Shown here one piece after another: positions 38,569-49,476 of a stretch of DNA of 64,000 bases. A program made the position numbers and the translations under genes. Location: positions 992,001 through 1,056,000 of the forward strand of contig JANQRY010000003.1 of the NCBI GenBank assembly GCA_028284345.1, written 5' to 3'. The notes beneath the pieces are model-generated. The model did not search any database, had not been told where the DNA came from, and saw nothing but the letters and a program-made list of their open reading frames with translations. This DNA is from Hyphococcus sp. (GTDB lineage Bacteria > Pseudomonadota > Alphaproteobacteria > Caulobacterales > Parvularculaceae). Position 1 is the first letter of the stretch; every line of letters starts with the position of its first letter.

Positions 38569-40590
38569 CTAAATAAGTTCCGCATCGGTTAGGACTTCAA
38601 CGAGAGCCGGCCCCTTGTGAGCGAGGGCGTCGCGAATAGCGGCTTCCAATTCGCTGCGTGTCGACACACGAAGACCCATCCCGCCGCAACTCTCCGCGAA
38701 CTCGGCGAAATTGGGATTATGCAAACTCGTTTGCCAAACTTCGAACTCCCCCGCTTTCTGCTCCTTCGTGATCTTACCCAATTCACTATTGTTTAGAAGA
38801 ATGTGCGTGATATCCATATTGTACTTTACGGCCGTAGTAAATTCCATCGCATACTGACCAAACCCACCGTCGCCGCTGATGGAAATCACTTTCCGTCCGT
38901 GGAGATCTTGAAAGTCCTGAGTTGCACACCACGCGCCCATAGCCGCAGGAAATGCAAAACCGATGGATCCTAAATAGCCGGACATCATGACGCGCTGGCC
39001 TTTACTTTCAAAATAGCGCCCGAAAGAGTACGTGTTGTTCCCCACATCCACCGCAATGGCCGCATCGGCAGGCACCAACTTCGACAGCACTTCAAAGATC
39101 GAAGCCGAATTCACGCCGGCACCATGATCGTCATCAACCCGGCTCGCTTTCTCCGCCCGCCAAATCTTCCAACGCTCAGCAATTTCCGGTACCTGATTAA
39201 CCACATCAAGACGGCGGGGCAATCTATCGGTCAAAGCCCGAGTCGTTTCGCCGATCTCCCCGAAGATGGGAACTTCTACAGGATGAAACTTACCCAATTG
39301 GATAGGATCGAAGTCCACTTGAATAATCCGTTTGGCTTTCTCAATGCCTGTATGATTGGAAAAGGACGAGCCCAGAGCAATAATCAAATCGCTCTCGTTC
39401 ATGAACCAACTGGCGATGGGCGTTCCTGAGCGGCCAAGGACGCCTGCGGCATGGGCATGTGTATCAGCAATGAGACCTTTGCCTTTAAAGGTGGTCAACA
39501 CCGGCGCTTTCAGAGCCTCGGCAAGCCTTATGATGTCGTCCATCGCTCCGCGTGCCCCATAGCCCACGACGATGATAGGGCGTTTTGCGGCCTTTATTTC
39601 ATCGAGCGCACGGCCCAACGCGTCCTGCGAGGGTAGAACGCGCTCATCTCCCAGCCGACCTTCCGGCGAGCCCGCCGGCGCGCCGGCAGCGGCTTCGATG
39701 GTCTGCACATCGTCTGGAAAGATTAGGTGCGCCACGTCCCTGTGGACAATCGCGTTCTTGCAGGCAAGGGACATAATCTCCGCATGATCAGAAGTATGCA
39801 GAACAGGCTGGCTGAAACGAGCCACGGCTTCGAAAGCCGACGACAAATCAATGTCTTGAAAAGCGCCCGGACCGAACACTTGCACCTGGACTTGGCCTGT
39901 CAAAGCCAAAACCGGTGCCCGGTCGACTTTTGCATCCCAAAGGCCGGTCATAAGATTGGTCGCACCGGGCCCCGCGATCGTCAGACACGCAGCTGGACGG
40001 CCCGACAGCTTCGCATACCCGGAACACGCAAAAGAGGCCGCTCCCTCATGACGGATCCCAATATAGGTGAGACGTCCTGCCTCTTCTTGCCGGCGCAACG
40101 CATCCGCGAGCCCCAAATTAGAATGGCCAACCATACCGAACACACGCACCACATCCCAGTTGACCATAGTCTCAGCCATCACATCGGTCACTGTACGGAC
40201 ATGGGTTTCCTCAGGCGCGACAGCCACATAGATCCCGTCCTTACGCACCTCCACTGGATACATGGTTTGTCCGGTATCCTCATGGCCACCTGGCGGTTTG
40301 CCAGTAAGCGGATCAAAATCCCAGCCATGCCACGGACATCTCAACCAACATTTCCCGTCTTCCCCGGTCTCGATGGATCCCTCCCCCAAAGGCCCACCTT
40401 GATGGGGACAATGATTGTCCATCGCCGTGTACTGACCGTCGAAATGAACCAAGGCCAAGAACTTTGTACCGGCATTGACCGTCATGACACGGCCTTCCGG
40501 CAACTGGTCAAGCTCGGCCACCTTAAACCAAACGACTGGGCCGCTCGAGCCGCCTCCCCCTGTTGATGGTCCTCCAGCCGATGATGACAT
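38569..40590 (-). CDS. Fusion of a Rieske 2Fe-2S ferredoxin domain and a ThDP-dependent enzyme
   Basis: The start at 40590 has AGGAGG eight bases upstream; an earlier GTG at 40680 adds a basic 30 residues. Of 673 residues, about 18-128 are a Rieske domain with Cys61-x-His63 and Cys85-x2-His88 (NHCPHQGGP and RCPWHGWDFD). From about 135 to the end is a complete acetolactate synthase/pyruvate oxidase-like enzyme: catalytic Glu182 in RHEGAAS, GPGATNLMTGL, and the ThDP/Mg motif GDG at 573-575 to NN at 600-601. The FAD site was not identified. The Rieske domain may carry electrons off a decarboxylated intermediate, so an oxidase or dehydrogenase is likelier than a synthase. Confidence 0.88.
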   Translation of the reverse strand: MSSSAGGPSTGGGGSSGPVVWFKVAELDQLPEGRVMTVNAGTKFLALVHFDGQYTAMDNHCPHQGGPLGEGSIETGEDGKCWLRCPWHGWDFDPLTGKPPGGHEDTGQTMYPVEVRKDGIYVAVAPEETHVRTVTDVMAETMVNWDVVRVFGMVGHSNLGLADALRRQEEAGRLTYIGIRHEGAASFACSGYAKLSGRPAACLTIAGPGATNLMTGLWDAKVDRAPVLALTGQVQVQVFGPGAFQDIDLSSAFEAVARFSQPVLHTSDHAEIMSLACKNAIVHRDVAHLIFPDDVQTIEAAAGAPAGSPEGRLGDERVLPSQDALGRALDEIKAAKRPIIVVGYGARGAMDDIIRLAEALKAPVLTTFKGKGLIADTHAHAAGVLGRSGTPIASWFMNESDLIIALGSSFSNHTGIEKAKRIIQVDFDPIQLGKFHPVEVPIFGEIGETTRALTDRLPRRLDVVNQVPEIAERWKIWRAEKASRVDDDHGAGVNSASIFEVLSKLVPADAAIAVDVGNNTYSFGRYFESKGQRVMMSGYLGSIGFAFPAAMGAWCATQDFQDLHGRKVISISGDGGFGQYAMEFTTAVKYNMDITHILLNNSELGKITKEQKAGEFEVWQTSLHNPNFAEFAESCGGMGLRVSTRSELEAAIRDALAHKGPALVEVLTDAELI

Positions 40591-40764
40591 AGCGTGCGCC
40601 TCCTGTTTCGCTCTTTTGGGAAGTTTACGAATGCTAGCGCGGCGAGATCCGAATAACGAGCCCAATTTCATATTAGCCACCTAAGTTGATGAACGGTCGT
40701 AGACCCTATGCGAGTTGGCTTATTGGCATGCGACGGAGGGGAACTGAACACGCGCTAGTGAAAA

Positions 40765-41602: not shown

Positions 41603-42361
41603 CTACCGCTTATGCTCTGGACTGTGAAAATCTGTCTTGCAACCAGCGTCCCAAACGTCCGGCTGATTTCCATGGGCGGGGAAACCGCCGGAATCCTTTA
41701 ACCAGCGGGCAACGTGCAGCGTGTTCCAAACAAGAAAGGTGGTGTTGCGATTGGTGAAGTCGTTTTCCGGCCCCCCCGAACCCTTGTCGCGATAAGACGG
41801 ACCGGGCCCCGCCTCGCCCATCCAGCCAGCATCGGCTTGGGGTGGAACGGTATAGCCAATGTGCGAAAGGGAAAAGAGGACGTTCATAGCGCAATGCTTC
41901 ACCCCGTCCTCATTTCCGGTTATCAATACAGCTCCGGTTTTTCCGTAATCACGGTACTGACCTTTATCATTGAACTGGTGCGTATAACCGTACATGCGTT
42001 CAAGCACCCGATTGCAAACTGAACTCTTTTCTCCCAGCCAAACAGACGTCCCAATGATCAATATATCGCACGCGTCAATCTTTGCTTGAATGTGAGGCCA
42101 ATCGTCCCGTTCGTAATTGTCAACGCCGGTATAATCCAATCCAAGACCGGCAGGAATGTCATAGTCAACGGGCCGAAGAATTTCGGTCTTAACACCATTT
42201 GCCTGATATATCTTCTCCGCAACCTCCAACAGACCCTCCGTATGAGAAAGATTTGGAGATCGTGTCAACGTACAGTTCAGCATCAGTACACTTAAATCGT
42301 CGTAACGTGCGGGTGCGTTTTTACACTGCTGTTTCGTGATCTTCTTAAGTTGGTTCGTCAT
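41603..42361 (-). CDS. Flavodoxin-fold NAD(P)H-dependent oxidoreductase
   Basis: The 252-residue protein has the flavodoxin-like FMN-binding pattern: VLMLNCTLTRSPNLSHTEGLLEVAEKIYQ in part, CDILIIGTSVWLGEKSSVC and KTGAVLITGNEDGVKH. The loop after the first strand (NCTLTRSPNLSHT) would hold the FMN phosphate. Members reduce quinones, azo compounds or nitro groups. It is about 170 bases from the convergent VOC gene. The intervening region (41432-41602) holds nothing I can name. Confidence 0.9.
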   Translation of the reverse strand: MTNQLKKITKQQCKNAPARYDDLSVLMLNCTLTRSPNLSHTEGLLEVAEKIYQANGVKTEILRPVDYDIPAGLGLDYTGVDNYERDDWPHIQAKIDACDILIIGTSVWLGEKSSVCNRVLERMYGYTHQFNDKGQYRDYGKTGAVLITGNEDGVKHCAMNVLFSLSHIGYTVPPQADAGWMGEAGPGPSYRDKGSGGPENDFTNRNTTFLVWNTLHVARWLKDSGGFPAHGNQPDVWDAGCKTDFHSPEHKR

Positions 42362-42650: not shown

Positions 42651-43385
42651 ATGAGAAACCATCTGTTTACAAGTATTCTAGCAGCCTTGCTGCTGACAAC
42701 CACCTTAGGGACAACCGCCCAAGCGGACTGCCCGTCCAGCGCCGGATCTCTAAAACTGGATCCCATCAGCCAGTATGGGACGGACATCCTCGAATTTGAC
42801 ATCTATCGCAAAGGCAATCTCATAGGCCGCCATGTGACTAAATTCGAAAACGGCGGGAATGCGCTCAAGGTCACGCACGACATGCAATTGGCGATCAAGT
42901 TCCTCTTTGTGACGGCATACCGGTTGACATATGAGGCAAGCGAAGTCTGGTGCGGCAACGAGCTTTTCGGCCTGACCGCAGCAGTGGACCGCAACGGTGA
43001 CCCAGCAACTCTGAACGCCGAACGCAAAGGGAATGAAATCCAAGTCGACAGCAGCCGGAAGGGCACATTTTCACTCGCCCGAGGAACATTTCCGAGCAAC
43101 CATTGGAACAATGGCGTTCTGTCCTCCAACAAAATCCTCAATACACTGACGGGCGGCCCTAACAAGGTCGATATCGAAAATTTGGGGCAAGAAACCATCA
43201 TCGCGGAAGGCAAAGAGATTAGCGCCACGCGGCATCGCTATTCCGGAGAATTGGAAGCAGACGTTTGGTATGATAGTGAAGGAAGGTGGGTAAAGTTGGA
43301 ATTTCCAGCGGAAGATCGTGCCTCTGCCGAGAAAGACAATTCGTTTATCGAATATGTCTGTGTTCGATGCGGTGTGGGCAGTTAA
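42651..43385 (+). CDS. Secreted DUF6134 family protein
   Basis: Start MRNHLFTSILAALLLTTTL follows GAGGCGCC; the upstream open frame lacks any signal. The 244-residue protein has a signal peptide (about 1-26, ending AQA). GTDILEFDIYRKGNLIGRH then AIKFLFVTAYRLTYEASEVW in part, and RYSGELEADVWYDSEGRWVKLEF are DUF6134 features, a beta-rich periplasmic family related to DUF3108-like proteins. Its role is unknown. It is convergent with the DUF1365 gene; its stop is 4 bases from the end of that gene. Confidence 0.85.
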   Translation: MRNHLFTSILAALLLTTTLGTTAQADCPSSAGSLKLDPISQYGTDILEFDIYRKGNLIGRHVTKFENGGNALKVTHDMQLAIKFLFVTAYRLTYEASEVWCGNELFGLTAAVDRNGDPATLNAERKGNEIQVDSSRKGTFSLARGTFPSNHWNNGVLSSNKILNTLTGGPNKVDIENLGQETIIAEGKEISATRHRYSGELEADVWYDSEGRWVKLEFPAEDRASAEKDNSFIEYVCVRCGVGS

Positions 43386-44152
43386 GCAGCTTTTCCGCTC
43401 ACATAGGGGACACCTTTGAGCCAAATCTTCAGCGCTTCCCAGTGGATACCGACAATCACCTTCAAAGTATCAAAGGGCGCTGAGAGCGCCGCCTTTAGCA
43501 AGCGCGCATTTGTGAGGGGCCGAAGCTTTCCTTCCAACACGGCATTGAGCAGACCGCCTTCTTGATTGGAATAATGGATTCCGACAAATAAACGGTCATT
43601 GGGATCGTTGATCCGGAACGTATAGCCGCCATCTGTCTTGTTAAAGGGCGAGACGCGAAGCTGTTTCTCTGCCCCATGCCGTGCGACATTGTGATTGGTC
43701 GAATCAAGATCGATGACGTAGGTGTGCCGTCCGCCAAACGTATTGTTCACTTGATAGAGGACAGCAACCAATTTGTCGTCACCATCCCGGCAATAATAGA
43801 CAGAGAGCGGATTAAAGGCATACCCCCAGAGCTTGGGCAAGCAGAGTAACTCGACTCTTTCAATCTTCGTGTTGCACCCCTGCGCTCTTAGTTGGTCGAT
43901 CGCCCACGCCTTCAGCCCCGAACGCCGCCCATCACCGAAATTCGATTGCGAAAACGAAAAGAGGTTGCGGCTGCCGACCGAGAACCAACGTAGTCTGCTA
44001 GACATTAGCGGCAGTTCATCCAGGTCCAATAAGAAATAAAGGACCCGGTATTTCAGGTGATGGCGCTTTGGACGCAATCGTGTGTGCCGCACTTCGCCGA
44101 AGTAAAGGCGAGACCGAAATCCATCCAGAGGTTTGCTGCCGTCAGCTTGCAT
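43382..44152 (-). CDS. DUF1365 domain-containing protein
   Basis: The ATG at 44152 (MQADGSKPLDGFRSRLYFG) is preferred over a GTG at 44167. The 256-residue protein has the DUF1365 core: GEVRHTRLRPKRHHLKYRV, FSFSQSNFGDGRRSGLK-like sequence, LPKLWGYAFNPLSVYYC, and FNKTDGGYTFRINDP. DUF1365 is typically next to an FAD-dependent oxidoreductase and cyclopropane fatty-acid synthase genes in sigma-E/ChrR regulons, suggesting a role in lipid modification under singlet-oxygen stress. It overlaps the end of the FAD gene by 11 bases. Confidence 0.93.
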   Translation of the reverse strand: MQADGSKPLDGFRSRLYFGEVRHTRLRPKRHHLKYRVLYFLLDLDELPLMSSRLRWFSVGSRNLFSFSQSNFGDGRRSGLKAWAIDQLRAQGCNTKIERVELLCLPKLWGYAFNPLSVYYCRDGDDKLVAVLYQVNNTFGGRHTYVIDLDSTNHNVARHGAEKQLRVSPFNKTDGGYTFRINDPNDRLFVGIHYSNQEGGLLNAVLEGKLRPLTNARLLKAALSAPFDTLKVIVGIHWEALKIWLKGVPYVSGKAA

Positions 44153-45521
44153 GAGCCAATTGCACACTCTCGTCTTGACTGGTCAAGGTATCGAGGAAAA
44201 TCCGCCCGCTTTCATTGTCAACGTTCCAAGGGCGCTTTGCACCGCCCAGTTTTTCGGCAACGGCCAATCCCGCCTGCAAACCGTCTTCGTGAAATCCCGA
44301 GCCGAAATGGGCCCCGCAAAACCACGTATTGCGCTGGCCCTGAAGCTGCCAAATCCGCTTTTGAGCCTGAATGGCCGCGGCATCAAACACCGGATGCTCG
44401 TAATCAAAATGCGCATAGGTCTGATCTTCGTGCGGCAATTCCGTTGGATTGAGCGTTACGAAGATGGGTGTGTTGGTGCCCAAACGCTGCAGCCGGTTCA
44501 TCCAATAGCTCACGCACAGCGCGTCACCCGCTCCATCCTTAGTCGAGCCCAAATAATTCCAACTGGACCACGCTTTCTTGGACTGCGGCATGAACCGTTG
44601 GTCCGTGTGGAGATAAGCTGAATTGTCTTGGTAGCGAAATGAGGAAAGGCAAGACGCTTCCTCTTGAGACGGATCGGAAAGAAGGCGAAGCGCTTGGTCT
44701 CCGTGCACGGCAAGGACCACGTCGTCAAACACGTCTTGACCGCCCTGTGTGTCGCGCACAATAACTTGGTTCACACCACGCTCAATTCGTTCGGCGCCTA
44801 CACCGACACGAATTTTATCCGCATAGGGGGAAATCAGCCGATTGACATATTCGCGGCTTCCTCCGTTCACGGTCTTCCACTGAGGCCGGCCGGACAGTGT
44901 CATGAGACCGTGATTTTCAAAGAAGCGAAGGAAGGCAAGAACCGGATAGCTTTCCACTTGTTGGACCGGACAAGACCAGATCGCCGCACACATGGGTAAC
45001 AAATGATCTCTCTGAAACGCCTTGGTGTACCCTTCTTCCCGGAGGAAGTCGCCAAGTGGTTTGACCTCAAGGTCAGTGCGATCGATATACTTGGTCGAAT
45101 TGCGGTACATGCGAAGCAGTTCCATCACCATTTTCCACAGCCGCGGCCGGGCAAAGTTCCAGGACTGTCCGAAAAAGCCATAAACGCTTGACGTTCCGTA
45201 CTCCAACTTTCCGCCGTCCAAAGAGGCCGAAAAAGACATGCAACTATCTACTGTCGGCACGCCGATATGGTCAAAGAGCGCGGTCAAATTGGGGTAGTTT
45301 CGCTCGTTGTAGACAATGAAACCGGTGTCCACGGCAAGCGATCGACCATTCACCTCAATATCAACGGTATTGGCATGCCCACCGATCCGCATGTCCTTTT
45401 CGTAGACCGTTACATCATGGTTTTGAGAAAGGAGCCAAGCAGCAGACAGACCGGATATTCCGGACCCCACGACGGCAATACGTTTCTTTGACTCATCTGA
45501 GGGGTGTGAGTGGATATTCAT
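44142..45521 (-). CDS. FAD/NAD(P)-dependent oxidoreductase (amine-oxidase-like)
   Basis: The 459-residue enzyme has the dinucleotide-binding N-terminus RIAVVGSGISGLSAAWLLSQ then VYEKDMRIGGHANTVDIEV, and the second FAD segment HFGSGFHEDGLQAGLAVAEKLGG at the end. It belongs to the group that pairs with DUF1365 and cyclopropane fatty-acid synthase, proposed to act on acyl chains of membrane lipids. An ECF11-type promoter stands about 65 bases upstream on the same strand. No cyclopropane synthase gene follows here. Confidence 0.93.
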   Translation of the reverse strand: MNIHSHPSDESKKRIAVVGSGISGLSAAWLLSQNHDVTVYEKDMRIGGHANTVDIEVNGRSLAVDTGFIVYNERNYPNLTALFDHIGVPTVDSCMSFSASLDGGKLEYGTSSVYGFFGQSWNFARPRLWKMVMELLRMYRNSTKYIDRTDLEVKPLGDFLREEGYTKAFQRDHLLPMCAAIWSCPVQQVESYPVLAFLRFFENHGLMTLSGRPQWKTVNGGSREYVNRLISPYADKIRVGVGAERIERGVNQVIVRDTQGGQDVFDDVVLAVHGDQALRLLSDPSQEEASCLSSFRYQDNSAYLHTDQRFMPQSKKAWSSWNYLGSTKDGAGDALCVSYWMNRLQRLGTNTPIFVTLNPTELPHEDQTYAHFDYEHPVFDAAAIQAQKRIWQLQGQRNTWFCGAHFGSGFHEDGLQAGLAVAEKLGGAKRPWNVDNESGRIFLDTLTSQDESVQLAHAS

Positions 45522-45586
45522 GAATTTAGTCCTGTTTGATAGCCCGCGCGTGGAAAGTCGTTAGCTTAAAACTAACGAACGCAATC

Positions 45587-45614
45587 GGTACGGCACCAAA
45601 AGGTCGCAGGATCA
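45587..45614 (-). promoter_or_regulatory. ECF11 (RpoE/ChrR-type) promoter of the FAD oxidoreductase operon
   Basis: On the minus strand TGATCC, a 16-base spacer, then CGTACC are read. This matches the ECF11 consensus (TGATCC -35, CGTA-type -10, about 16-base spacing) known from Rhodobacter and Caulobacter. The -10 ends 65 bases before the FAD gene's ATG. It places the FAD/DUF1365 operon under the adjacent sigma factor. Confidence 0.75.
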
Positions 45615-45662
45615 CAACCGTCTCATCTTGCAGCGCAACGAAGAAACCGGCCAATGAGCTTG

Positions 45663-45690
45663 TGATCCGGAGATGAATGACCGGCGTAAG
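45663..45690 (+). promoter_or_regulatory. ECF11 (RpoE/ChrR-type) autoregulatory promoter of the sigma factor
   Basis: TGATCC (45663-45668), 16 bases, CGTAAG (45685-45690) matches the same consensus as the opposite-strand site. Transcription would begin near 45697, which rules out the open frame starting at 45677 and supports the start at 45824. Together the two sites form a divergent, self-amplifying arrangement. Confidence 0.78.
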
Positions 45691-45823
45691 GGGTGGTATG
45701 ACTGGATCAGCAAACATAGCCCTAGAGCCAACGATACCGGCTAAGGTTGGCCCGAGCAGCCGCAAGGCTGCGACGCCGAAAACACTAGAAGGCTGGCATT
45801 CGACGCCCTATACCGGAAAGCGT

Positions 45824-46462
45824 ATGGACATCGGGTCGGATAGCAATGTCACGAAAAGTGAAGGTGGCGTAAAGCGAGTGCAAAAGATGCCGCAAAGCGC
45901 TTCAGCCGCAGAATTGGCGCCAGCCTTGATGATAGAACTCATGACCGCAGTCGCAACGAAACGCGACCGCAATGCGTTCATGAAGCTGTTTGATTATTAC
46001 GCCCCGCGAGTGAAATCGTTCCTGATGAGCTTGCGGGCGTCGGACTCAATCGCGGAGGACCTTACTCAAGAGGTGCTCTATACGGTTTGGTCCAAGGCGG
46101 AGCTGTTTCAAAGTCAAAGAGGTTCGGTCAACGCTTGGGTCTTCACGATTGCGCGTAATCGCTACGTCGATCAAATAAGGCGCTCCCGGAAACCCGCGAT
46201 CGACCCTGAAGAATACGCTCTTATGTCCGAGGCGCCGGCCGAGGCTGACGAACTTATCGAACGACAACAAAACGTTGAAAAGTTGCGAGCGGGGTTAAGC
46301 GAACTCCCCCCCGAGCAGGAAGAAGTGGTTCGCATGTGTTTTTTAGAGGGAAAGACCCAAAGGGAGATTTCAGACGAATTGGGCATACCCCTCGGCACGG
46401 TTAAGTCCAGGTCTCGACTGGCCTTTAGCCGGTTGAGAAGCATACTAGGTGAGGTGATGTAA
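45824..46462 (+). CDS. ECF11 RNA polymerase sigma factor (RpoE/ChrR-type)
   Basis: The start MDIGSDSNVTKSEGG follows GGAAAG; the frame is open upstream but that is promoter. Of 212 residues, region 2 is FDYYAPRVKSFLMSLRASDSIAEDLTQEVLYTVWSKAELF in part with AWVFTIARNRYVDQIRRS, and region 4 is LPPEQEEVVRMCFLEGKTQREISDELGIPLGTVKSR in part. Such sigma factors switch on singlet-oxygen and membrane-stress genes once freed from their anti-sigma factor. Its stop overlaps the start of the anti-sigma gene (TAATG), so the two are made together. Confidence 0.95.
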   Translation: MDIGSDSNVTKSEGGVKRVQKMPQSASAAELAPALMIELMTAVATKRDRNAFMKLFDYYAPRVKSFLMSLRASDSIAEDLTQEVLYTVWSKAELFQSQRGSVNAWVFTIARNRYVDQIRRSRKPAIDPEEYALMSEAPAEADELIERQQNVEKLRAGLSELPPEQEEVVRMCFLEGKTQREISDELGIPLGTVKSRSRLAFSRLRSILGEVM

Positions 46463-47088
46463 TGAACGATGTCCTTCAAAATGACTGGATCATGAGTTAT
46501 GTCGCTGGCGTCTTGAACCCAGGCGAAAGTCTCATGGTTGAAACGTATATAGCTGCCCGCGGCGAAGACGGCGCGCGGCTGGACGCAGCTTCAGAAATTG
46601 CTGGAGCTTTTCTAGAATCTGTACCGGTTGCGGATGTCTCAGCATCTTTGCGAGATGAGACACTACGCAAACTTGACACTCCGTTCGCGTATAAAGGATC
46701 TGATGTTGGCTCGAACCCGAGCATTGACGCAATCATGCGCGGCAAGATCGACGAGGTTCCGTGGTCGTTTTTGGGGCCGGGTCTGAGGAAGCACAAAGTG
46801 TGGTCCTCGTCCGAAGGAGGTGCCCTGTGGCTGTTAAGGGCCGAGCCCGGAACGAAGATCCCGGACCACACCCATTCCGGAACCGAACTGACATTGGTTT
46901 TGCGAGGATCGTACCGAGATGCCACAGGCTCTTACAATGAGGCTAGCCTTCAGGAAGCCGATGAATCCTTGGAGCATGAGTTGGAAATCATGGGCCGCGA
47001 CGAGTGTATCTGTCTCGCGCTCACAGAGTCGCCAATCGTGATTAAAAGTTGGTCCGGACGCTTTCTGCAAAAACTGGTGGGTTTCTAA
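46462..47088 (+). CDS. ChrR-like cupin anti-sigma factor lacking N-terminal zinc ligands
   Basis: The 208-residue protein aligns with ChrR: an anti-sigma domain at residues 1-70 and a cupin-like domain after 115 with DHTHSGTELTLVLRGSY (His-x-His-x3-Glu) and EADESLEHELEIMGRDECIC. In ChrR the first domain uses one early His and HxxxCxxC to bind zinc. Here the aligned sites are Gln/Asn, Tyr, Arg and Asp, so none of the four ligands remains. The C-terminal zinc site is kept. It probably still holds the sigma factor, but by a zinc-free fold. Confidence 0.88.
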   Translation: MNDVLQNDWIMSYVAGVLNPGESLMVETYIAARGEDGARLDAASEIAGAFLESVPVADVSASLRDETLRKLDTPFAYKGSDVGSNPSIDAIMRGKIDEVPWSFLGPGLRKHKVWSSSEGGALWLLRAEPGTKIPDHTHSGTELTLVLRGSYRDATGSYNEASLQEADESLEHELEIMGRDECICLALTESPIVIKSWSGRFLQKLVGF

Positions 47089-47207: not shown

Positions 47208-47429
47208 ATGGACTGGCTATCTGCACTGCCTACGTTTTTGGGGATCTATCTGGCGATTGGCCTAGTATTCGCCGTGATATTTGTGACACTCGGTCTGAGC
47301 GTTGTGGACCACGACGCCAAGGGAGCGTCCGTGCGCGTTCGGCTCCTATTTCTGCCCGCCTCAATGGCCCTTTGGCCGATCTTGATCGTCACTTTGTTGA
47401 CCAGGGCAATTGGCGGAAAGAACCAATGA
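47208..47429 (+). CDS. Small membrane protein, first gene of the haem/Rieske module
   Basis: The 73-residue protein has two hydrophobic helices, about 7-30 (FLGIYLAIGLVFAVIFVTLG) and 48-66 (FLPASMALWPILIVTLLTR), joined by a short acidic/basic loop (VVDHDAKGASVRVR). GGAGGG precedes the ATG by five bases. Its stop overlaps the next ATG (ATGA). I do not know its family. It is likely a subunit or assembly factor of the complex encoded downstream. Confidence 0.75.
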   Translation: MDWLSALPTFLGIYLAIGLVFAVIFVTLGLSVVDHDAKGASVRVRLLFLPASMALWPILIVTLLTRAIGGKNQ

Positions 47430-47584
47430 AGCGGCGTCACCGAAGAAGACACTTAATTATGTGGTTGCTTCTGGGACCCGCGATTGTGGCCGGCTTTGCC
47501 TTATCGTTGATGGTAAAAACCGAGGTGCCCGTTGAACCCTCCGCCCCAATCAAGATGTCATCTTCAGAAAATGGGGAGCCATAG
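47426..47584 (+). CDS. Very small single-helix membrane protein
   Basis: The 52-residue product begins with an Arg/His-rich stretch (MKRRHRRRH), has one helix (LIMWLLLGPAIVAGFALSLMV), and ends with a Pro/Ser tail outside. Its start overlaps the previous stop by four bases (ATGA) and it ends 2 bases before the next ATG. This tight fit argues it is real despite the size. The positive-inside rule puts the N-terminus in the cytoplasm. Confidence 0.65.
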   Translation: MKRRHRRRHLIMWLLLGPAIVAGFALSLMVKTEVPVEPSAPIKMSSSENGEP

Positions 47585-47586
47585 GA

Positions 47587-48636
47587 ATGGGTGTCGGCTA
47601 TCAGGTCGTTCAGTGGAACAAACACAAAAAGATATACGACGGCCTGCTATTAGGCGGAGTTGTTTTGTACCTGGTCGGGTTTATCGTTATCGGCAGCGTG
47701 ATCTTCGCCAAAGAAAATCCCGTTCAAGTCCCGATTCTATTGATGCGCGCCTTTGGCAGTTGCGCCTTCATCATGCTGACGATGATATTGATGATTGGCC
47801 CCCTCGCCCGGCTCAATGACAAGTTTCTGCCGCTTCTCTACAATCGCAGACACTTTGGTGTACTGACGTTTATCATCGGCCTGCTTCATGCCCTCGTCGC
47901 CACGGTTTGGTATCATTTTTTCAGCGACGTAAATCCGTTCCTATCGATCTTCACGACAAACAATCAGATTACCAACCTCCAAGCGTTCCCTTTTGAGCTG
48001 TTTGGGATCCTCGCGCTGCTCATCCTCTTCGTCATGGCCGCTACCAGTCATGACTTTTGGCTAAAGAATCTGTCGGCCCCCTTCTGGAAAACCCTGCACA
48101 TGTTTGTGTATGTGGCGTATGGGGCCCTCGTGATGCATATCGCTCTGGGTTACCTGCAGTCAGAGTCGAGCGTTGTCGTACCGATCCTGGTGGCCGCATC
48201 ATTTGGGTTAGTCATTCTCCTTCACTTGATGGCAGGCTTTAAGGACGCAAGGGAAAGCGCAACCAACATCAAATCGGGCGCAGGATGGATCGCTGTCGCA
48301 GCAGTTGGAGATATTCCCGAAAGCCGCGCCCATACAGTGAATGTTGCCGATGGCGAACGCATTGCCGTGTTCAAATATGACGGCAAGATTTCAGCCATCT
48401 CCGCCGTCTGCGCCCATCAAAATGGCCCGCTGGACGAAGGCAAAATCATCGACGGCTGTGTGACCTGTCCCTGGCACGGCTATCAGTATGATCCCGCCAA
48501 CGGTCAATCCCCGCCGCCCTACACAGAAAAGATCCACACCTACAAGGTCAAACTCGAAGGGGATATGATTTTGGTTGATCCCAAACCGCTTCCACCGGGG
48601 ACGCCCGTTGAGCCCGCACGCATCGGATCGGAGTAA
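47587..48636 (+). CDS. MsrQ/ferric-reductase-like haem membrane protein fused to a Rieske domain
   Basis: The 349-residue protein has about six membrane helices in residues 18-220, with haem-ligand candidates as in MsrQ and ferric reductases: RRHFGVLTFIIGLLHALVATVWYH and WKTLHMFVYVAYGALVMHIALGY (cited in parts). From about 235 to 340 is a Rieske 2Fe-2S domain with VCAHQNGPLDEG and VTCPWHGYQYDP, both Cys-x-His and Cys-x2-His complete. It would move electrons between a quinone or soluble donor and hemes across the membrane. Fusion of the two is unusual. The next gene is its probable partner. Confidence 0.88.
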   Translation: MGVGYQVVQWNKHKKIYDGLLLGGVVLYLVGFIVIGSVIFAKENPVQVPILLMRAFGSCAFIMLTMILMIGPLARLNDKFLPLLYNRRHFGVLTFIIGLLHALVATVWYHFFSDVNPFLSIFTTNNQITNLQAFPFELFGILALLILFVMAATSHDFWLKNLSAPFWKTLHMFVYVAYGALVMHIALGYLQSESSVVVPILVAASFGLVILLHLMAGFKDARESATNIKSGAGWIAVAAVGDIPESRAHTVNVADGERIAVFKYDGKISAISAVCAHQNGPLDEGKIIDGCVTCPWHGYQYDPANGQSPPPYTEKIHTYKVKLEGDMILVDPKPLPPGTPVEPARIGSE

Positions 48637-48639
48637 GAA

Positions 48640-49476
48640 ATGGCGCCCAAAGACGATTTTTACGTGGGATATGGAAAAGCTCCGGCAAGCTTTGCCCGTT
48701 TCTCCAGCGTTATCTCCATCCTGCTGCTGACCATCGCCGCTCTTTCCGCGATTGCCTGGGCCATGACCCAAGACGATACCGGAGACGGACAGTGGCGAAC
48801 CTCCACCACAATCGAGCTCGAAGGCAAAGTCGTTTTCGAACCCTATCCAATGCTGAAGACACTAAACGAGGACGGCTCCATCGAAACCTACTTGCTGGGG
48901 GAAACCGACAAGAAAGGCGCCGATGAACGTGCCGCTCCGTTCGAAGGTCAAATGGTCAAAGTAAAAGGCGTCGAAATCGTCCGCGGTCCCCGACGCATTT
49001 TAACGCTTGAGGCCACAGACAGTCCGATCGTCGTTTCTGACACACCAGACCAGACCATCCAATCAAACGAGTTTGAATCCCTGGGCACCTTTACCCTCAA
49101 AGGGGAAATCCTCGACAGTAAATGCTATTTGGGCGTGATGAAGCCGGGCGAGGGGAAAACCCACAAAGCCTGTGCCACCTTGTGCATTTTGGGCGACATC
49201 CCGCCCCTATTCCTCATCAAGCACGCCGACGACACAGAATCTGCATACTTGGTGACCGGCCCGACCGGGAAAGCCATCAGAGATGAAATCCTGCCCTTCG
49301 TCGCGGATCCCGTTCAGGTATCCGGCGAAGTGGGCTGGCAAGACGACATGCCGGTTTTTCGCATCGACCCATTGTCCATAACGCGGTTGGCGGGCCGCTC
49401 GGGGCCAGCACAGATTTCACGCCTTGACGATATCGACTTTGCGATCTGTCATCACGACGATCCAGCCGCCGGTTAA
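48640..49476 (+). CDS. Membrane-anchored protein with conserved Cys motif, partner of the haem/Rieske protein
   Basis: The 278-residue protein has one N-terminal helix (about 20-43; FSSVISILLLTIAALSAIAW) and a large domain most likely in the periplasm. Near residue 160-185 it has GEILDSKCYLGVMKPGEGK, then THKACATLCILGDIPPLFL, three Cys and a His that look like a metal or redox site. I do not recognise a characterised family. It starts 3 bases after the fusion gene's stop, so they form a single transcript and most likely one electron-transfer system. Confidence 0.75.
   Translation: MAPKDDFYVGYGKAPASFARFSSVISILLLTIAALSAIAWAMTQDDTGDGQWRTSTTIELEGKVVFEPYPMLKTLNEDGSIETYLLGETDKKGADERAAPFEGQMVKVKGVEIVRGPRRILTLEATDSPIVVSDTPDQTIQSNEFESLGTFTLKGEILDSKCYLGVMKPGEGKTHKACATLCILGDIPPLFLIKHADDTESAYLVTGPTGKAIRDEILPFVADPVQVSGEVGWQDDMPVFRIDPLSITRLAGRSGPAQISRLDDIDFAICHHDDPAAG

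Follow-up and report, generated by a model that had tools for sequence, protein, structure and literature searches.

A stretch of the Hyphococcus sp. genome (GCA_028284345.1, contig JANQRY010000003.1, forward-strand positions 992,001–1,056,000; hereafter the window, meaning all 64,000 nucleotides analysed, numbered 1–64,000) contains a four-gene module that is real and widespread in bacteria, and that may form an electron relay running outward across the membrane. All four genes lie on the plus strand. Gene 1 (47208–47429) encodes a two-helix membrane protein of 73 amino acids; gene 2 (47426–47584), a one-helix protein of 52 amino acids with a basic N-terminus; gene 3 (47587–48636), a 349-amino-acid protein combining a six-helix ferric-reductase-type heme domain (residues ~1–220) with a Rieske [2Fe-2S] domain (~232–332); and gene 4 (48640–49476), an N-terminally anchored Cys-motif protein of 278 amino acids with a predicted extracytoplasmic, beta-rich region. 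Genes 1, 2 and 4 were assigned from their open reading frames (ORFs) together with hydropathy and profile matches upstream of gene 3 in related loci (gene 1), profile matches (gene 2) or the Cys motif and an AlphaFold model (gene 4), and gene 3 from Pfam (PF01794 and PF00355), an alignment with MsrQ and an AlphaFold model. Genes 1 and 2 overlap by 4 bases, and gaps of 2 and 3 bases separate gene 2 from gene 3 and gene 3 from gene 4. A hydropathy scan gave 2, 1, 6 and 1 hydrophobic segments for genes 1 to 4, that of gene 4 covering residues 24–42. An earlier note on this DNA had described four tightly packed genes with these helix counts, and the ORFs, overlap, gaps and hydropathy bear it out. 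Genes 1, 2 and 4 matched no Pfam family at E ≤ 1, and a scan for consensus promoters and terminators gave matches near chance level. The arrangement itself exceeds chance, as a second copy occurs in the same genome and the gene order is kept in related loci.

The second complete module (G000:C5, L008:7719–9969, minus strand) encodes proteins 25%, 31%, 50% and 39% identical to those of window genes 1, 2, 3 and 4, respectively. For related loci, an alignment of gene 3 was scanned against genome contigs, and the best 80 of at least 591 matched stretches were used; these include near relatives and are therefore not independent, and many come from metagenome-assembled genomes (MAGs). The ORFs of these loci were searched with profiles of genes 1, 2 and 4, and matches counted relative to the position of the gene 3 match. 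The genes are kept together, as the reading in the earlier note required: of the 80 loci, 78 have gene 1 upstream of gene 3 (missing at a contig edge in L084, and in L112) and 77 have gene 4 downstream (missing on the short contigs L081 and L119, and not found in L139 although that contig is long). The gene 2 profile matched in 61 of 80 loci, and several of the misses hold a longer ORF in its place. By the titles of their sequence records, 30 loci belong to Alphaproteobacteria, 20 to Planctomycetota, 9 to Acidobacteriota, 6 to Verrucomicrobiota/Lentisphaerota, 6 to Bacteroidota, 4 to Cyanobacteria, 2 to KSB1/Calditrichota and 2 to Gammaproteobacteria, with 1 lacking a label, amounting to at least eight phyla. 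Gene 2 is longer in other phyla, with ORFs of ~130–220 amino acids and an extra region around a PDLLVYW-like motif (L072, L083, L085, L113, L123, L142 and others); two of these longer forms were checked and had no Pfam match, and window gene 2 corresponds to the anchor part only. In one MAG, gene 3 is divided over two ORFs (L079:9001–10101).

Gene 4 is closely tied to gene 3 in two genome samples. Among 240 Alphaproteobacteria genomes, own genome included, gene 3 was found in 13 (E ≤ 1e-30), and a two-row gene 4 profile matched 16 (E ≤ 1e-5). Twelve of the gene 4 matches were long (E 1.8e-32 or better), all within the 13 gene 3 genomes and adjoining gene 3; the four others covered a short part of the domain only (E 6e-8 to 2.5e-6). 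In a phylum-level sample of 299 genomes, which overlaps the class sample in three of its seven gene 3 carriers (G000, G107 and G154), gene 3 was found in 7, all Alphaproteobacteria, and full-length gene 4 adjoined it in 7 of 7; an eighth genome had a partial gene 4 domain match only. Full-length gene 4 was thus found only beside gene 3 in both samples (12/12 and 7/7 genomes). At 11 class loci, blastp recovered gene 1 in 9, gene 2 in 6 and gene 4 in 10, and gene 4 was present on direct reading of the eleventh (L032); because blastp finds genes 1 and 2 in fewer class loci, they are less surely present than gene 4. The module is patchy even among close relatives, with gene 3 in 24 of 60, own genome included (E ≤ 1e-40). 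A neighbour check by blastp covered 20 of the 26 matches that this search of close relatives gave outside the own genome, in stretches of 6.7–14 kb, and found a gene 4 match in all 20 (a 20-bit fragment only in L169) and gene 1 in 19.

The N-terminal part of gene 3 matched Ferric_reduct (PF01794) with E 1.5e-12 and 48.1 bits against a cut-off of 28, and this match recurred at E ≤ 0.01 in 13 of 13 heme-domain rows, comprising the window, the second copy and 11 class loci. Escherichia coli MsrQ aligned with gene 3 residues R87, R88, H101, P135, S154, W167, H171 and H184 at 25% identity (hhalign probability 91.9, E 6.8e-7, 161 columns), and the NCBIfam MsrQ model scored 44.7 bits, under its cut-off of 130. 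The earlier note had singled out H89, H101, H171 and H184, which are indeed present, and its reading required conserved His pairs; the spacings RRH-x11-H and H-x12-H each occur in 78 of 79 gene 3 ORFs (L119 gave no ORF). Three of these histidines are MsrQ-like, and the fourth, H89 of the RRHFG motif, is Leu in MsrQ and stands two residues past an Arg at the NOX histidine position; H155 and H213 are likewise not common to MsrQ. In YedZ, too, the first position in the third transmembrane helix (TM3) is Arg (PMC3591440). The inner heme pair of gene 3 is not canonical because of this Arg and the displacement of H89. Two heme sites have been stated for MsrQ-like proteins (PMC8238504). The C-terminal extension of gene 3 consists of the Rieske domain alone, and Pfam found none of the FAD/NADPH domains of long-form NOX or ferric reductase proteins. 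Solved structures gave no match to the 13-row heme-domain profile. The reading of gene 3 as an MsrQ-related heme domain, predicted to bind b-heme, fused to a Rieske domain is supported.

The Rieske domain was described as complete in the earlier note, and the data agree: PF00355 matched over its cut-off (E 1.4e-16), the ligands C275, H277, C294 and H297 are present within the loops CAHQNG and CPWHG, and the CxH...CxxH ligand motif occurs in 79 of 79 gene 3 ORFs. Rieske proteins of the bc1 type carry extra disulfide cysteines, which the gene 3 loops lack. Both by sequence and by the AlphaFold model (mean pLDDT 79.6), the closest solved structures were mostly dioxygenase and monooxygenase ferredoxins, with one cytochrome-complex Rieske protein ranking lower; the top 50 Foldseek matches to the gene 3 model were Rieske proteins only. 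Positive charge is predicted to place the N-terminus, the TM2–TM3 and TM4–TM5 loops and the Rieske domain of gene 3 inside. The Rieske domain is accordingly predicted to be cytosolic and of the dioxygenase-ferredoxin type, and its cluster would have a low potential, consistent with outward flow.

Gene 4 has the motif D-x-K-C...M...H-x2-C-x3-C, which provides residues C162, M167, H175, C178 and C182 and is unbroken in 77 of 77 relatives. Its AlphaFold model, built from a 13-row alignment (mean pLDDT 82.4, pTM 0.74), has a helix at residues 16–43 followed mostly by strands, with H175, C178 and C182 on one helix (172–184); their i, i+3, i+7 spacing would put all three on one helix face. Foldseek gave no match in the PDB at E ≤ 0.001; the weak matches differed in fold, with several OB proteins among them, so we claim no fold for gene 4. 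The two-row gene 4 profile, run against solved structures, returned a single match, a nanobody at E 0.54, which we dismissed as chance. A shorter family with the gene 4 Cys motif was found in 7 of 240 class genomes (loci L066–L070, L195 and L196). All seven loci also encode another small Cys-bearing protein, and five encode one of SCO1 type (blastp E ≤ 1e-5), for which PF02630 was confirmed at L069. Indirectly, these neighbours provide the main hint of copper or thiol chemistry for gene 4. Relatives of gene 4 with 29–32% identity are also present on five Rhizobium plasmid records.

We lean, if only somewhat, towards a reading in which electrons pass from a cytosolic donor through the Rieske cluster and b-heme of gene 3 and reach gene 4 at its periplasmic Cys/His/Met site. 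The four gene products would then form one membrane complex carrying electrons outward. The low-potential-type Rieske cluster would be fed by a soluble reductase or dehydrogenase in the cytosol; electrons would cross the membrane as in MsrQ and NOX, by b-heme on H101, H171 and H184 (possibly with H89 or R87); and anchored gene 4 would take them up at its Cys/Met/His site and reduce a periplasmic substrate, for which an organic compound seems less likely than copper or a thiol/disulfide. Genes 1 and 2 may be small accessory subunits. A trans-membrane relay coupled to the Cys-motif protein had been proposed in the earlier note; the coupling stands as a conserved linkage within one module, and the relay is a step beyond it, for which we infer the cofactors, heme number, direction, donors, acceptor and complex formation. 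Gene order, conservation, domain homology and topology by hydropathy and charge are directly observed.

Candidate donors were found among the neighbouring genes, several of which themselves carry a Rieske domain or motif. Glutamate-synthase-like (GltS-type) proteins lie in the flanks of 20 of 80 loci (14 Alphaproteobacteria, several of them close strains, 3 Bacteroidota, 2 Acidobacteriota and 1 Verrucomicrobiota), and a Rieske motif is visible in 18; two of the GltS-type hits are contig-edge fragments. Thiamine pyrophosphate (TPP)-type proteins flank 16 of 80 loci, with the motif visible in 15 and one contig-edge fragment. Fusions of Rieske and NADPH-dependent FMN reductase family (FMN_red) domains adjoin the module in L121 (Planctomycetota; domains confirmed by Pfam), L125 (Lentisphaerae) and L142 (Pedosphaera, Verrucomicrobiota), and a fourth adjoins it in L179 (Alphaproteobacteria); in this last one the Rieske part was identified by a match and the FMN_red part by likeness. 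No Rieske-FMN_red fusion was seen in the own genome. Its second copy of the module stands beside two other genes, one encoding a glutamate-synthase-like protein whose Rieske domain is N-terminal, the other a divergent TPP-enzyme protein in which a Rieske motif is present. Of the 20 relatives' loci, 12 included a TPP-type gene, 12 a GltS-type gene and 11 a Na/H exchanger; a Na/H exchanger-like ORF also stands beside the second copy (L008). The recurrent tags suggest, as a hypothesis, Rieske-to-Rieske transfer between tagged enzymes and gene 3, with donors that may vary by lineage among Rieske-tagged FMN reductase, pyruvate-oxidase-like and glutamate-synthase-like enzymes. A tentative extension, which we hold to be possible but doubtful, is a docking hub in which Rieske-tagged oxidoreductases of many phyla plug into a common cytochrome that drives an undescribed periplasmic copper or thiol centre.

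The same neighbours bear on the direction of flow. Glutamate-synthase-like enzymes normally consume reductant, and the 20 loci with such a Rieske fusion could be read as the receiving end of an inward path, in which a periplasmic donor reduces gene 4 and the Rieske domain passes electrons to cytosolic Rieske-tagged or flavin enzymes; b-heme relays can run both ways. The Rieske-FMN_red and pyruvate-oxidase-like fusions, however, point to supply from inside, and characterised relatives with the ferric reductase domain (FRD) run outward (PMC5676040), which together make inward flow unlikely.

Several observations weigh against the outward relay to gene 4. In one class genome, the thirteenth gene 3 carrier (G216, locus L179), genes 1, 2 and 3 are followed directly by the Rieske-FMN-reductase-like protein, and gene 4 is absent both from the 8.4-kb contig and from the assembly (E ≤ 1e-5); together with L139, this indicates that gene 4 is not always needed. 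The Rieske-tagged neighbours occur at a minority of loci (GltS-type 20/80, TPP-type 16/80, FMN_red 3/80 plus L179), so none of them stands as a general donor. The copper or thiol hint comes from SCO1-type neighbours of distant, standalone relatives of the Cys motif. Short FRD forms with Arg for the first TM3 His have been suggested to bind the outer heme only (PMC3591440), and binding of that kind in gene 3 would leave a gap in the wire. Gene 3 could instead be a ferric or cupric reductase, or a NOX-like oxidase, acting at the outer heme, with gene 4 as a metal chaperone or stabilising subunit rather than an acceptor. FRD relatives act in this way (PMC3591440), SCO1-type genes lie near standalone relatives of the gene 4 domain, 9 of the 80 loci have YHS-type proteins in their flanks (one member identified), and in G216 and L139 gene 3 stands without gene 4. 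We nonetheless regard this alternative as fairly improbable, since a C/M/H/C/C motif unbroken in 77 of 77 relatives goes beyond the needs of a scaffold.

The wider window contains further genes of interest. A fusion of a Rieske domain and a pyruvate-oxidase-like TPP enzyme lies at 38569–40680 (minus strand; Pfam/NCBIfam), with homologues near the module elsewhere, and an FMN_red protein without a Rieske domain lies at 41603–42361 (minus strand; PF03358). The latter is a possible, unproven donor. It is 79% identical to a protein of an Allomuricauda (Bacteroidota) MAG that is also near the module (L132), a likeness that may reflect transfer or a binning error. Directly upstream of the module are genes for an extracytoplasmic function (ECF) sigma factor and a ChrR-like anti-sigma factor (45677–47088, plus strand); the ChrR-like protein matched PF12973 over its cut-off and scored 111.3 bits against a cut-off of 124.5 for TIGR02451. 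With DUF6134, DUF1365 and amine oxidase genes, they make up a set (42651–47088) that we take to resemble known sigmaE-ChrR stress loci. We rejected the ECF sigma and ChrR genes as parts of the module: although adjacent in the window, these and the DUF1365 and amine-oxidase genes were seen in 0 of 20 relatives' loci (blastp E ≤ 1e-15). Other neighbour clusters recur, with one member identified in each, namely VTT/ATP-grasp-like proteins (15/80), TANGO2 (13/80), DinB (13/80) and YHS (seleno)proteins (9/80), in loci including L073, L077, L089, L100, L106, L108, L120 and L122. In a cyanobacterial MAG, a single ORF near the module combines an FMN_red domain with an ATP-grasp (cyanophycin-synthetase-like) region (L143:273–2021), and in another locus a gene for a SorA-like sulfite dehydrogenase precedes a small CxxCH-bearing ORF (L171:1117–2903).

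If the proposed relay is correct, it would constitute an unstudied path by which cytosolic electrons reach the periplasm in Alphaproteobacteria, Planctomycetota, Acidobacteriota, Verrucomicrobiota, Bacteroidota, Cyanobacteria and others. It would also offer a functional frame for three protein families without a Pfam entry, and for Rieske-tagged TPP, glutamate-synthase-like and FMN-reductase enzymes.

Among known systems, MsrQ (YedZ) shares with gene 3 the PF01794 domain, the RR pair and three histidines aligned with H101, H171 and H184. Gene 3 differs from it in the C-terminal Rieske domain, the additional conserved H89, H155 and H213, its own four-gene setting and the lack of a detected MsrP. 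The two gene 3 copies are the only PF01794 matches in the genome, and the sole PF00174 match, on another contig, scored best as SorA (254 bits, below the cut-off of 600) and reached only 41.1 bits as MsrP, against a cut-off of 207, in keeping with the claim of the earlier note that MsrP is missing; as the assembly is 98.5% complete, this absence is not absolute. An ordinary MsrPQ system was rejected, as no MsrP was found in the genome. A variant in which another periplasmic enzyme has replaced MsrP in an MsrPQ-like repair role would fit the alignment of gene 3 with MsrQ. It appears very improbable, given the missing MsrP and the annotated recurrent neighbour clusters, which include no molybdoenzyme.

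In the literature searched, which did not extend to subscription papers or preprints, we found no description of the four-gene module; in the passages of PMC10715153 covered, MsrQ appears only in the title of a reference. Flavinylated systems with MsrQ-like proteins (PMC8238504, PMC11334425) likewise rely on a PF01794 cytochrome that acts as a modular relay across the membrane and serves a carrier outside the cytosol, but these carriers are flavinylated by ApbE, and an NAD-binding domain is present in many; neither main text contains the word Rieske. Bacterial NOX (SpNOX, PMC5676040) resembles gene 3 in its FRD heme core and outward flow, and differs in having an FAD/NADPH domain in place of the Rieske domain, while the Arg of gene 3 at the first TM3 heme position is MsrQ-like. 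A precedent in domain make-up is architecture M4 of the FRD superfamily, listed with a Rieske domain in a 2013 figure legend that also names FMN (PMC3591440); gene 3 likewise combines FRD and Rieske, in one chain. The legend presents M4 as a model, and the sections covered give no gene neighbours, partner protein or function for it. The description of the relay as a new type, made in the earlier note, is therefore too strong for the fusion itself; what is new is the four-gene module and its gene 4 family.

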